From Gemmatimonadaceae bacterium (GTDB lineage: Bacteria > Gemmatimonadota > Gemmatimonadetes > Gemmatimonadales > Gemmatimonadaceae): a DNA stretch of 64,000 nucleotides. The stretch is from assembly GCA_020851455.1 (NCBI GenBank), contig JADZCT010000033.1, forward strand, positions 1 through 64,000. Reading direction: 5' to 3'. The translations under genes were made by a program, and so were the position numbers. The notes under the pieces were generated by a model. That model had not been told where the DNA came from. It did not search any database and saw nothing but the letters and a program-made list of their open reading frames with translations. Shown here in pieces: positions 6,706 to 43,210 of this stretch; the stretch's first letter is position 1, and each line of letters begins with the position of its first letter.

Positions 6706-7131
6706 ATGCCAGTGACCGCCAGACTCTCGCGAGCCTTCTACGACCGACTGGGCGAATAGGTTGCCAACGAACTCGTTGACTGGATGAACGCCGTGGATAC
6801 GAACCACGGAACGACCCTGCGTGAGTTGATCGAACTGAACTTCGCGCGCTTCGATGCGAAGCTCGAGCAGCGCGTCGCTGAATCGGCCGCGAAGCTCGAC
6901 GCGAAGATCGACGGCGTCGCTGCCGAGCTCAATGCGAAAATCGATCGCGTCGCTGCCGAGCTCAATGCGAAAATCGATCGCGTCGCCGCCGAGCTCAATG
7001 CGAAAATCGAGATTGGTTTCGCCCAGCAAAGTGAGCGCATCGAGCGTGGCTTCAGGGAACAGACACGCTGGATGTTCCTCATCTGGGGGATGATGTTCAT
7101 CCCGATCATCGGGCTCTGGATGCAGCGGTAG
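6706..7131 (+). pseudogene. Coiled-coil membrane-anchored protein gene interrupted by an in-frame TAG
   Basis: The natural frame appears to begin at ATG 6706 (MPVTARLSRAFYDRLGE), hits TAG at 6757-6759, and continues in the same frame as VANELVDWMNAVD. A restart at ATG 6784 would give 115 residues. The body is a heptad/hendecad coiled coil (FDAKLEQRVAES, then three 11-residue repeats of the type AKIDRVAAELN) and ends with a hydrophobic anchor (MFLIWGMMFIPIIGLWM). The TAG most simply replaces CAG (Gln). Proteins of this architecture are membrane-anchored coiled coils of unknown role. Either the shortened form is made from 6784 or the gene is dead. Confidence 0.65.
6901..7011 (+). repeat. 33-bp tandem repeats within coiled-coil gene
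   Basis: Three near-identical 33-bp units occupy 6901-6933, 6934-6966 and 6967-6999, with a 12-base partial fourth. Each encodes an 11-residue coiled-coil unit (AKIDRVAAELN). Copies 2 and 3 differ by one base, so the expansion is recent. Confidence 0.9.
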
Positions 7132-38356: not shown

Positions 38357-39358
38357 TCAGCGGAACGGCAGCGCCGTGATCGTCGCGATCACCTGCCGGC
38401 CATTCATTGCCGCAGAGACAGAGACGCCGTCTTCCACCTCGCGCCGCACATAGGCGAGAGCGATCGGGCCGAAACGCGGAGACACGGCGGACGACCGCAC
38501 CGTACCGACCGGCGCACCGTCACTCGAATGCAGCTCCGCACCGGGCGTTACCGGAGCCGCTGCGCGGAGGCCACGGAGCGTACGGTTCACGTGGCCCCGG
38601 AAGCGTATCCGCGCGACGGTCTCCTGCCCGGTGTAGCACCCCTTGTCGAATGAGATGCCGCCGAGCCGATCGAGTCCGGCTTCCTGCGCAAGGACGGCAT
38701 CATCCATGTCGAGCGAATAACGCGGCCATCCGGCCTCTACCCGCAATACCTCGGCGGTGCCGGCATCGAGCGGTACCGCGCCCGATGCTTCCAGCGCCGG
38801 CACCATGGCCGCGCGCGCCGGTGCCAGCGCCAGCAGGTCGAACGCCATGACGCCGAGGTCCGGCGCCCGCACGACCTGTGCGGCGTGACCACGCACGTTG
38901 ACGTCAAGGTGCGCAAAGGGAGGCAGTCCGTCGAGCGCAACTTCACCCACCGCCTGCGCGGAACCCGGACCCGCGATACGGACTTCGCACGTATCGGCAG
39001 TGATGTCGCGAAATGACGCGAGCCGCGGGTTCACGTATTTCCGGAGCATCGCGAGCAGCGGCGGGCCGGCAGCCGCGTCCGCGTTCACCATGAAGCCGTC
39101 GTCGCTGGCGAGCACCCGCACGTCGGCGATGATCTTTCCCTTGGCGGTGAGCGCGGCTGCGTAGAGGCCAGCGCCCGGCTTCAGTGACGCGATGTCGTTG
39201 GTCAGGAGGCCGTTGAGCGTGAGCGCGGCCTGTGGCCCGGAGAACCGGATTCGTACGCGGTCGCTCCGGTCACACCAGACAGAACGGGCCATCGCCGCTT
39301 CGTACGCAGCGGGATCCGCTGCCGCCCACGTGCGGCTCGCAGCCGCGCCACCGCTCAT
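38357..39358 (-). CDS. ygfZ: Folate-binding protein YgfZ (iron-sulfur cluster repair)
   Basis: 333 residues from ATG 39358, overlapping the glcF stop (ATGA). Diagnostic motif DKGCYTGQETVARIRFRGHV near residue 243, with the conserved cysteine, plus the GcvT-like N-terminus (DRVRIRFSGPQAALTLNGLL, AALTAKGKIIADVRVLA). YgfZ uses tetrahydrofolate to help maintain iron-sulfur enzymes. It is the last gene of the glcDEF operon, whose GlcF carries such clusters, a sensible pairing. Confidence 0.92.
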   Translation of the reverse strand: MSGGAAASRTWAAADPAAYEAAMARSVWCDRSDRVRIRFSGPQAALTLNGLLTNDIASLKPGAGLYAAALTAKGKIIADVRVLASDDGFMVNADAAAGPPLLAMLRKYVNPRLASFRDITADTCEVRIAGPGSAQAVGEVALDGLPPFAHLDVNVRGHAAQVVRAPDLGVMAFDLLALAPARAAMVPALEASGAVPLDAGTAEVLRVEAGWPRYSLDMDDAVLAQEAGLDRLGGISFDKGCYTGQETVARIRFRGHVNRTLRGLRAAAPVTPGAELHSSDGAPVGTVRSSAVSPRFGPIALAYVRREVEDGVSVSAAMNGRQVIATITALPFR

Positions 39359-40665
39359 TGCGCGCTCCGAGCGGAATAAGCGTCGTCGAGGAGCTCGACG
39401 GGGTGGCGCGTGACGGCAGGGCTCCCGGACCGGAGCAAACCGGCCCCGATGTGCATCATGCACCCTGGGTTGCCAGTCACAACAACCGACGCCCCGCACT
39501 TTCGGATGTTCTCGAGCTTGGGAGCGAGTATCCGCTGCGAGAGTCCGGGCTGCGCGAGCGAGAAGAGTCCAGCACTTCCGCAGCAGTCGACTGCATCGGG
39601 CAGCTCGCGCGCGTTCAGTCCCTGCATGGCGGCTAGTACCCTGGCTGGGGGCTCGGAGAGGCGCTGGGCATGCAAGAGGTGGCACGGATGATCCACGGCA
39701 ACGGCCGCATCCGTCGCCGCGGCAGCGGGTTCCGGGCCTGCGTCCGCAAGCAACTCGCTCACGTCGCGCACGCGCGCCGCCATTGCCATCGCGCGCTCTC
39801 GCCATTCCGGGCTGCCCGCAAGGAGCCGCCCGTACTCCTTCATCGCCGCACCGCAGCCCGCCGAGTTCACGGCGATGAACTCCGCGCGCGATGCCTCAAA
39901 CGCGGCGATGTTGATGCGCGCCAGTTCCTGCGCCGCGGCTTCCTGCCCGGCGTGGGCGTGGAGCGCGCCGCAGCAGCGCTGGCCCGGTGCGGAGACGACC
40001 TCGTAGCCGTTGCGCGATAAGACGCGCTCGGTGGCCCGGTTGACGGGCGCCAGCAGCCCTTCCATGACGCAGCCAGTGAGCACTGCTACGTGTGCACGGG
40101 CTTCGGCCTCACGCGCTGCTGCCGGCGATGGTTTCGCTGGATCGGGGCCAATGGCTGGCCGGGCCACTGCGGGTCGCGGCAGCCGGCGCTCGATGCCATG
40201 CGACGGTCGTCTTGTCGTCTCCAGAGTCGCGCAGGCGATCCCGAGCCTGCCTGGCATGCGGGCGAGCAGTCGGCTCAGCCCTGTCGCGCGGATGAGCCGC
40301 ACCTTGAGCATCGCGAGCCGGAGCAACGCGGGTCTCGCAAACACGAACAGGATGAGCCGCGAAACGAATTGCAGCGGCCGCTGCGACAGGGTATCTGCAC
40401 GGACGGCTTCGAGCAGCTCGCCATACGGAACACCCGACGGGCACGCAGTTTCGCACGCGCGGCAGCCAAGGCAGTTGTCGAGATGCGACAGCATGAGCGA
40501 CTCATCTTCCGCCGAAAAGCCACCCTTCGCCAAGGCCTTCATCAGGACGATCCGCCCGCGCGGCGAGTCGTTCTCGTCGTCCAGGGTGAGATAAGTCGGG
40601 CAGGCCTGCGTGCAGAACCCGCAGTGCACGCAAAGGTCGGCGCCGGGGAGTCCGCGCACGGTCAT
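39355..40665 (-). CDS. glcF: Glycolate oxidase iron-sulfur subunit
   Basis: 436 residues. Two 4Fe-4S motifs: CVHCGFCTQACPTYL near residue 12 and CLGCRACETACPSGVPYGEL near 64. The C-terminal half has two CCG-type modules: ...VVSAPGQRCCGALHAHAGQ with FIAVNSAGCGAAMKEYG, and VDCCGSAGLFSLAQPGLSQR with VVTGNPGCMMHIGAGL. GlcF passes electrons from the flavin subunits to the quinone pool. ATG 40665 overlaps the glcE stop. Confidence 0.94.
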   Translation of the reverse strand: MTVRGLPGADLCVHCGFCTQACPTYLTLDDENDSPRGRIVLMKALAKGGFSAEDESLMLSHLDNCLGCRACETACPSGVPYGELLEAVRADTLSQRPLQFVSRLILFVFARPALLRLAMLKVRLIRATGLSRLLARMPGRLGIACATLETTRRPSHGIERRLPRPAVARPAIGPDPAKPSPAAAREAEARAHVAVLTGCVMEGLLAPVNRATERVLSRNGYEVVSAPGQRCCGALHAHAGQEAAAQELARINIAAFEASRAEFIAVNSAGCGAAMKEYGRLLAGSPEWRERAMAMAARVRDVSELLADAGPEPAAAATDAAVAVDHPCHLLHAQRLSEPPARVLAAMQGLNARELPDAVDCCGSAGLFSLAQPGLSQRILAPKLENIRKCGASVVVTGNPGCMMHIGAGLLRSGSPAVTRHPVELLDDAYSARSAQ

Positions 40666-41675
40666 TCCGCGTCCTCGCCGAGGATTCCCGGGTTCAGGAC
40701 GCTTCCGGGGTCGAACCGACCCTTGAGCCGCCGCGCCACCGAGATCGAGAGCGGGCTGCCGCGCAGCATGCGCGGGTGCGGGTCGCGGGCGCGGTACGAC
40801 GTCCAGAATCGTCCGTCGGTCTCGGTGACCGTGCCGAGCCGTCCCGCTTCCGCAACGCCGGCGCGCACAAGGGCGGTGCTGCCCATATAGCGCGCAACGA
40901 CCGCGCCGGCGGGCACGCCAAGCAGTCTCGCGTCGTGCTGGTCCAGCACGGCACAGCCACTCGGCGCCACCTCGGCGGCGATGAGTGCGTCAGCAACTGC
41001 AGCATCTCTTTCGATGGACGAAGAGCCGGCTGCTGGCGGCCACTTCGCCCCGGCGGGCGGCGAAGCGCCACGCACGCCGCCGCCGGCCGGCACGATCAGC
41101 ACCGTCACGTCCGCCGCAGGGATCGCCCGCAACCGCACGGTAACCTCGGTGATGATCCCCAGCGTGCCGAACGCGCCAACCATCAGCCGTACGAGGTCGA
41201 AACCGGCAACGTTCTTCACCACGCGGCCTCCGCCTCGTGCCACCGCGCCTTCACCATCCACGAACTCGATGCCGAGCGCCAGGTCGCGCGGGCGTCCGAG
41301 CGCCGCGCCGAACGGCCCGGTCGTTGCGGTTGCGAAGGTGGCGCCAATCGTGCCGTCATCCGTGCCCCACGGGCAGAGCGGGCACCACTGCCCGTGGGCG
41401 CGCGTTGCGTCGTCGAGCTCGGCCAGCGTGGTTCCCGCGCGCGCCGTGAGTGTGAGGTCTCCGGGAACGTATGCAACGATGCCCGAGAGGCGGCGCAGGG
41501 TGACTTGGTCGGCGCCGTCCCGCACGCGCGCTGCCGGCGTGCCCTCTCCCGACCACTTGCCCGCGCCAACGACCTTCAGTCCGCGGCCCTCGGCGCGCGC
41601 GGCACGGACGACATCGGCCAGATCAGGAGTGCCCGCTGGCTCGTGCGCCGCCGCCGGCCCGTGTGCGTCCGTCAT
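40662..41675 (-). CDS. glcE: Glycolate oxidase FAD-binding subunit
   Basis: 337 residues from ATG 41675. FAD-binding type 4 (PCMH) domain: VAYVPGDLTLTARAGTTLAE, then PWGTDDGTIGATFATATTGP and VVKNVAGFDLVRLMVGAFGT with LGIITEVTVRL. Works with GlcD and GlcF to oxidise glycolate to glyoxylate. Its start codon is the last of a series of 35-bp repeats, each repeating the ATG context, so initiation is coupled to minigenes after glcD. Confidence 0.92.
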   Translation of the reverse strand: MTDAHGPAAAHEPAGTPDLADVVRAARAEGRGLKVVGAGKWSGEGTPAARVRDGADQVTLRRLSGIVAYVPGDLTLTARAGTTLAELDDATRAHGQWCPLCPWGTDDGTIGATFATATTGPFGAALGRPRDLALGIEFVDGEGAVARGGGRVVKNVAGFDLVRLMVGAFGTLGIITEVTVRLRAIPAADVTVLIVPAGGGVRGASPPAGAKWPPAAGSSSIERDAAVADALIAAEVAPSGCAVLDQHDARLLGVPAGAVVARYMGSTALVRAGVAEAGRLGTVTETDGRFWTSYRARDPHPRMLRGSPLSISVARRLKGRFDPGSVLNPGILGEDAE

Positions 41676-41800
41676 GGCGCCGCTCCCGCCGCCTTGCGTG
41701 CGTCCGTCATGGTGCCGCTCCCGCTGCCTTGCGTGCGTCCGTCATGGTGCCGCTCCCGCCGCCTTGCGTGCGTCCGTCATGGCGCCGCGCCCACTGCCTT
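41661..41800 (-). repeat. Four 35-bp tandem repeats forming a chain of three 12-codon minigenes
   Basis: The unit repeats with exact 35-base period across the glcD-glcE junction. On the minus strand each copy gives ATG-ACG-GAC-GCA... ending CCA-TGA, encoding MTDARKAAGAAP. Minigenes run 41780-41742, 41745-41707 and 41710-41672, each stop overlapping the next start (ATGA). The first start overlaps the glcD stop and the last stop overlaps the glcE start. A GGGAG lies 9 bases before each internal start. Confidence 0.9.
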
Positions 41801-43210
41801 CCGCGCCGAAGGCGACGCATTCCACTCGCGGCAGTACCGCACCGGCACCACCTTGCCGGGGTTCGCGCGCCGGGCCGGATCGAACGCGTCGCGGAGCCGG
41901 CACATCGCGTCGAGCGATTCCGGCGAGAAGAGCATGTCCATGTATGGCTGCTTGTCGAGCCCCACGCCATGCTCGCCGGTAATGGTACCGCCTTCGCCGA
42001 TGCAGACTTCCATTATTTCCCTGCACGCCGCGTGCACGCGCGCCATTTCATCGGCGTCATTGCCGTCGCACGGTATGTTCGGGTGCAGGTTGCCATCGCC
42101 GGCGTGGAACACGTTGCACACCCGAACCCGGTGGCGCTCGGCGATCTCGCCAATGCGCCGCAGTACTGGCGCCAGCCGGGTACGCGGCACGACGGCATCC
42201 TGTACCACGAGGTGCGGCGCCACGCGGCCCATCGCCCCGAAGGCCTTCTTGCGACCCTGCCAGAGCCGCTCGCGGTCGGACGAGTCGGTAGCTGTGCGGA
42301 CCGCCCGTGCGCCGTTTTCGCGGCAGATGCGTTGCACCGCCGCCGTGTCGTCGTCGAGTCCCGCAGCGGGGCCGTCCACTTCCACCAGCAGGCACGCCTC
42401 GACGTCCGTTGGGTATCCAGCGGCGTAGATGGACGCCTCGACCGCAGCTATTGTCCCGGCGTCCACCAGCTCGAGCGCGGCGGGTACGATGCCGGCGGCG
42501 ATGATGGCGCTCACCGCCTTGGCGGCGCCGTCGAGCGCGGGGAAGTCGGCGAGCATGGTGCAGACGCGGGCGGGGTTGGGCGTGAGCCGCACGGTAACGT
42601 CCACCGCAACGCCGAAGCATCCCTCGGACCCCACGAAGGCGCCGAGGAGGTCGTAGCCGATTTCGTCGTCGCGCGGCGCAGCGAGCTCGATGAGTTCGCC
42701 ATCGGGCAGCACCACTGTCGCATGGAGAACATGATTCAGTGTGACGCCGTACTTCAGGCAGTGCGGGCCGCCGGCGTTCTCGGCGACGTTGCCGCCGATG
42801 GAGCAGGCCGTCTGGCTCGACGGATCGGGCGCGTAGTGAAGGCCGTAAGGCGCCGCTGCCTTGCTCAGCCTCGCGTTCACCACCCCTGGCTCGACAGTCG
42901 CAGTTCGCCCGACAGGGTCAATCGAGTATATCTGCCGCATGCGGTGCAGGCCGATCATCACGATTCCATCGGCGAGCGAACCGGCCGAGAGGCCCGTGCC
43001 CGCTCCCCGCGCGACGAACGGCGCATTGGCGGCGGCGAGCGCGCGCACTACCGCGATCGCTTCGGCGCGGTTGCCCGGGGCGACGACGAAGCGCGGACGC
43101 AGGCGGTAGCCGGGCAGCCCGTCGTTCTCGTACACCAGAAGCTCCGCGGCGCGCGTTATGACGTGCTGCGGGCCGACGATGCCGGAAAGCGCCCGTGCGA
43201 GCTGATCCAT
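41777..43210 (-). CDS. glcD: Glycolate oxidase FAD-linked subunit
   Basis: 477 residues. FAD-binding motifs VVAPGNRAEAIAVVRALAAA, FVARGAGTGLSAGSLADGIV near residue 92, and QTACSIGGNVAENAGGPHCL; the C-terminal oxidase domain ends with NVFHAGDGNLHPNIPCDG and GGTITGEHGVGLDKQPYMDM, which carry the substrate and flavin His residues. Oxidises glycolate or D-lactate-type 2-hydroxy acids. First gene of glcD-glcE-glcF-ygfZ. Its 3' end (GAAP and stop) is the template of the 35-bp repeats. Confidence 0.94.
   Translation of the reverse strand: MDQLARALSGIVGPQHVITRAAELLVYENDGLPGYRLRPRFVVAPGNRAEAIAVVRALAAANAPFVARGAGTGLSAGSLADGIVMIGLHRMRQIYSIDPVGRTATVEPGVVNARLSKAAAPYGLHYAPDPSSQTACSIGGNVAENAGGPHCLKYGVTLNHVLHATVVLPDGELIELAAPRDDEIGYDLLGAFVGSEGCFGVAVDVTVRLTPNPARVCTMLADFPALDGAAKAVSAIIAAGIVPAALELVDAGTIAAVEASIYAAGYPTDVEACLLVEVDGPAAGLDDDTAAVQRICRENGARAVRTATDSSDRERLWQGRKKAFGAMGRVAPHLVVQDAVVPRTRLAPVLRRIGEIAERHRVRVCNVFHAGDGNLHPNIPCDGNDADEMARVHAACREIMEVCIGEGGTITGEHGVGLDKQPYMDMLFSPESLDAMCRLRDAFDPARRANPGKVVPVRYCREWNASPSARKAVGAAP

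Follow-up and report, generated by a model that had tools for sequence, protein, structure and literature searches.

A tandemly duplicated stop-start junction places three 12-codon open reading frames between glcD and glcE in a Gemmatimonadota genome

Among described systems, the closest counterparts of the junction reported here are termination-reinitiation pairs, in which genes for subunits of one complex are joined by a 4-nt ATGA overlap of stop and start (PMC6728339, PMC10666635). In E. coli, the last 15 nt of the upstream gene are enough for coupling at such an overlap, and moving the stop 38 nt from the next start lowers re-initiation by 80-100% (PMC10666635); the limits of spacing differ among studies, a few of which report coupling across wider gaps (PMC12548453). 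In synthetic bicistronic designs and nonsense short-ORF (nfORF) constructs, a short ORF contains an internal Shine-Dalgarno (SD) sequence and ends next to, or overlapping, the start that follows (PMC5995908, PMC13255528); in E. coli, a synthetic nonsense short ORF whose internal SD lay near the following start raised translation (PMC13255528). Tiny ORFs have additionally been described upstream of an operon gene in axe-txe, where a minigene affects expression in cis (PMC8708949), and between mgtC and mgtB, where mgtQ is reported to affect downstream translation (PMC8092293).

The glcD-glcE junction of a Gemmatimonadota genome differs from each of these. Where an ATGA pair has one overlap, it has four in series, three of which end 12-codon ORFs made by duplication. 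Unlike the synthetic designs, the chain is natural, its units are repeated in tandem, and an upstream gene would feed it in place of its own promoter and first ribosome-binding site. The axe-txe minigene has two codons, is single and is reported to act possibly via mRNA stability, whereas here 12 codons are present in three copies; mgtQ reportedly relies on alternative stem-loops and on acidic codons, whereas the glcD-glcE junction lacks special predicted RNA structure. No precedent for repeated coupling junctions was found in the open-licence literature, and on its sequence we file the array as a putative variant of termination-reinitiation coupling.

The host sequence is a metagenome-assembled genome (MAG) that totals 2.96 Mb over 139 contigs, with 4% contamination, and is the only genome of its species in this comparison. 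The features below lie in the window (the whole stretch of DNA analysed, 64,000 nucleotides); an earlier note on this DNA had omitted the strand, and the genes and minigenes all lie on the minus strand.

41777-43210, minus strand: glcD, gene for the FAD subunit of glycolate oxidase (477 aa); TGA stop within the first ATGA
40662-41675, minus strand: glcE, intact gene for the FAD-binding subunit of glycolate oxidase (337 aa); NCBIfam GlcE match at 2e-43, under the equivalog cut-off; syntenic in relatives
39355-40665, minus strand: glcF, gene for the iron-sulphur subunit (436 aa); NCBIfam GlcF match at 4e-83, under the equivalog cut-off
38357-39358, minus strand: ORF after glcF, beginning MSGGAAAS and resembling ygfZ/GcvT by eye; overlaps glcF by one ATGA
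41663-41800, minus strand: tandem array of 35-bp units in 3.9 copies (TRF score 234 with 93% matches; copy comparison)
41742-41780, minus strand: minigene 1, MTDARKAAGAAP*, its start overlapping the stop of glcD; GGGCG, not GGAG, upstream
41707-41745, minus strand: minigene 2, MTDARKAAGAAP*; GGAG 7 nt before the ATG
41672-41710, minus strand: minigene 3, MTDARKAAGAAP*; GGAG 7 nt before the ATG; stop overlaps the glcE start
41683-41686, minus strand: GGAG Shine-Dalgarno of glcE, 7 nt before the ATG, read from sequence
41718-41721 and 41753-41756, minus strand: GGAG copies of minigene 3 and minigene 2, respectively, read from sequence

The profile matches support GlcD, GlcE and GlcF as FAD-linked and iron-sulphur subunits of a glycolate oxidase, with scores below the equivalog cut-offs; for GlcD these were Pfam FAD-oxidase_C (4e-68) and FAD_binding_4 (2e-37) together with NCBIfam GlcD (6e-135, likewise below the cut-off), and its identity to same-genus GlcD proteins was 70-81%. 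GlcF is intact. Pseudogene decay of glcE was considered and is not indicated, as the gene is intact and its divergence exceeds the trend of the genus only slightly (z from -2.9 to 0.3). In the adjoining part of the operon (38357-40665, minus strand), glcE-glcF (CGGAATGACC) and glcF-next ORF (GCGCAATGAGC) are each joined by a single ATGA, such that the whole operon forms one chain of 4-nt overlaps in which the glcD-glcE junction is the odd one out.

The 35-bp repeat that the earlier note had placed at this junction was recovered by TRF with the same period. On the minus strand the ATGA sites stand at 41780-41777 (the end of glcD), 41745-41742, 41710-41707 and 41675-41672 (the start of glcE), giving four stop-start overlaps in series across the 101 nt between the glcD stop and the glcE start, and the arithmetic proposed previously, 35 = 39 - 4 with an unbroken ATGA chain, holds in the sequence. 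The count of four copies requires qualification: TRF finds about four periods, but the fourth (41811-41777) is the native glcD tail, a degenerate copy with 6 differences over the 26 nt 5' of its ATGA, and the array consists of the original junction plus three added units. Each added unit comprises the final stretch of glcD (~7 codons) followed by the first 13 nt (4-5 codons) of glcE, and only two sites vary among the three, both at synonymous third positions. The array occurs once in the genome and is far beyond chance.

Since the MAG is fragmented and contaminated to the extent given above, the array might be an artefact of a short-read metagenome bin. Single-base differences among the copies speak against identical units having been collapsed or looped during assembly, and the copies differ more strongly from the glcD tail; moreover, the 138-bp array lies within a 206-kb contig with intact genes on both sides. 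We consider such an artefact very unlikely.

Comparison with relatives indicates how the array arose. In almost every relative examined, glcE lies next to glcD, and 36 of the 42 distinct junctions have a single direct -4 overlap (ATGA or GTGA); within the genus this was the case for 14 of 15, the remaining one being +1. None of the 42 junctions carries an array. A single 4-nt overlap is thus the ancestral state, and the array is a derived, lineage-specific tandem duplication of the stop-start junction, specific to one species as far as can be seen from the genomes compared. Conservation of the unit itself was rejected, as a DNA search of 179 family genomes returned mainly the GlcD C-terminus and no array; no match to the unit was found in viral contigs. 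We propose that a 35-bp duplication of a translationally coupled glcD-glcE junction would have been followed by amplification to three added units, and the pattern of copy divergence fits a first duplication, divergence and later amplification.

The tidiness of the chain follows largely from its unit length. A duplication that spans ATGA places the next ATGA L bases further on, and a start reaches the TGA in frame only if L = 2 mod 3; since 35 satisfies this condition, every added unit necessarily forms a full ORF of 12 codons that shares an ATGA with the one after it. When single tandem duplications of 20-60 bp were simulated at 36 natural junctions of relatives, an intact chain resulted in 99.7% of those with L = 2 mod 3, and in 33.5% over all lengths; with L = 0 mod 3, GlcE was extended in frame at its N-terminus in 96%, and L = 1 mod 3 gave ORFs that ran past or ended early. 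With a prior of about one third for such a chain, the arrangement by itself is no evidence for design or selection. Because every unit brings its own stop and start, a change in copy number cannot frame-shift glcE, which always starts at the last ATG, and a phase-variable on/off frame switch was therefore rejected.

Graded tuning is possible under this frame neutrality, and the earlier note had suggested that copy number tunes GlcE translation. Under that explanation the number of units would set GlcE relative to GlcD, either downwards through multiplied re-initiation losses or upwards through added SD-bearing starts, and repeat number would vary among strains under selection. In its favor, expansion or contraction of a frame-neutral array would change expression in steps and not on/off, SD motifs stand at three of the four starts and are absent from the first, and short upstream ORFs shift translation in E. 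coli 5-20 fold (PMC13255528). However, the comparison of repeat number that had been suggested as a check gave no second copy-number state at the glcD-glcE junctions of relatives, no other minigene chain of 35-bp spacing was found in 395 phylum genomes, and the species is represented by one genome. As a chain is also expected from about one third of random duplications, tuning of GlcE by copy number is unsupported, and we regard it as unlikely. The more specific proposition that the SD-bearing minigenes form a relay in which the number of identical units sets the ratio of two subunits, in small steps and with no risk to the frame, appears quite unlikely.

The SD motifs, which the earlier note had missed, bear on the mechanism. 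GGAG stands 7 nt before the start that follows each added unit, that is before minigene 2, minigene 3 and glcE, whereas the first junction has GGGCG; all three added units thus have the internal SD ~5-10 nt before the next start that characterizes bicistronic and nfORF designs. Predicted pairing to the anti-SD CACCUCCU was -6.7 kcal/mol for the GGAG units versus -4.9 at the first junction. The 16S rRNA 3' end was not found in the MAG bin itself, and the anti-SD was taken from genus members, being present there in three same-genus genomes. GGAG is present at the same position of the glcD tail in several relatives, which makes it plausible that an ancestral SD was included in the unit when it was duplicated. 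Across 1.25 Mb of sampled sequence (42% of the genome), with genes called by a simple GC3 rule, an SD-like motif was found at 22 of 88 (25%) -4 junctions versus 7% at matched positions within genes.

These observations bear on whether the repeat is simply inert, a passive product of slippage whose minigenes are rarely translated while glcE starts de novo at its own GGAG-ATG. The start site that glcE possesses, with GGAG at 7 nt, agrees with such a reading, as does the predicted local RNA structure, which does not exceed that of shuffled sequences in strength (z = 0.45) and for which a special role at the array was rejected. In contrast, SD motifs at only about a quarter of -4 junctions suggest that coupling is the main route in this genome, and the glcE start region is GC-rich and, by prediction, only ~40% unpaired on average. 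An inert repeat seems improbable to us. That the 12-residue peptide is functional and made in three copies is extremely unlikely: all three copies encode the same peptide, their two differences being synonymous, but MTDARKAAGAAP is a fusion of the GlcD tail and the GlcE head, is of low complexity and is absent from relatives, and two variable sites are too few for a test of selection, the synonymous pattern being weak with a chance of 1 in 9.

Taken together, these results suggest that the duplication probably produced a relay that preserves coupling and is tolerated because it changes GlcE little or not at all, without having been selected as a tuner. The intact state of GlcE and GlcF and the purely synonymous differences among the minigenes agree with this reading. 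Ribosomes finishing glcD would re-initiate on minigene 1, then on minigenes 2 and 3 and finally on glcE, with GGAG assisting the last three starts. The translated minigenes would hold each step at -4 and so keep coupling over the 101 nt; without their translation, coupling of glcE to glcD over this distance would be largely lost. Retention of coupling from glcD through to glcE, as the earlier note had it, thus holds in principle from the sequence, and the array is most likely tolerated because coupling is preserved. That the minigenes are translated, and how large any effect would be, we infer from this arrangement. As a rule of thumb, if ribosomes re-initiate with probability r at each junction and never start de novo, the expected GlcE:GlcD ratio would change from r to the fourth power of r; should re-initiation at each junction be poor under these conditions, four junctions would cut GlcE steeply, at odds with neutrality.

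If the chain is translated, it provides a natural test of the loss per re-initiation step, as the GlcD:GlcE ratio reached after passage through four ATGA junctions in series would set a direct bound on the efficiency per junction, which the cited studies address one junction at a time. The locus would also illustrate how two overlapping genes may take up an insertion and yet stay coupled, the outcome being set by insertion length modulo 3. The array is in this respect a curiosity, largely a consequence of simple arithmetic.

Examination of the sampled 1.25 Mb placed the array in its genomic context: it had the highest TRF score of 104 arrays and was the only one joining two gene ends, while 58 of 94 arrays had a period divisible by three and lay inside genes or at gene edges. 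Chance chains of unrelated short ORFs exist in the same 1.25 Mb among the matches listed; the idea that such chains are common in the genome was rejected, the glcD-glcE chain being the only one of repeated units among those matches. In the phylum, where the search covered 35-bp spacing only, the pattern ATGA(N31 ATGA)x3 was present in 2 of 395 genomes, namely the host genome and one other, whose match is a repeat that bears a GGATTCCCGC...GCGGGAATGACGG motif, seems unrelated and does not resemble a minigene chain. This match to the spacing pattern, in a same-family genome (L138, G080:C25:427207-427315), is a 35-bp tandem repeat with a palindromic GGATTCCCGCTTTCGCGGGAATGACGG motif.

Further repeats were observed in the host genome. 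A period-35 tandem array of 2.5 copies (83%) lies outside called genes at L139:7133-7221, and a period-34 array of 2.9 copies (98%) at L089:1-99 stands at a contig end, where it may be the cause of an assembly break. In addition, a gene at 6784-7131 contains a 33-bp tandem repeat of 3.6 copies (6893-7010, plus strand) that encodes the 11-residue repeat AELNAKIDRVA; its small product has a C-terminal hydrophobic segment and appears by eye to be coiled-coil-like and membrane-anchored.
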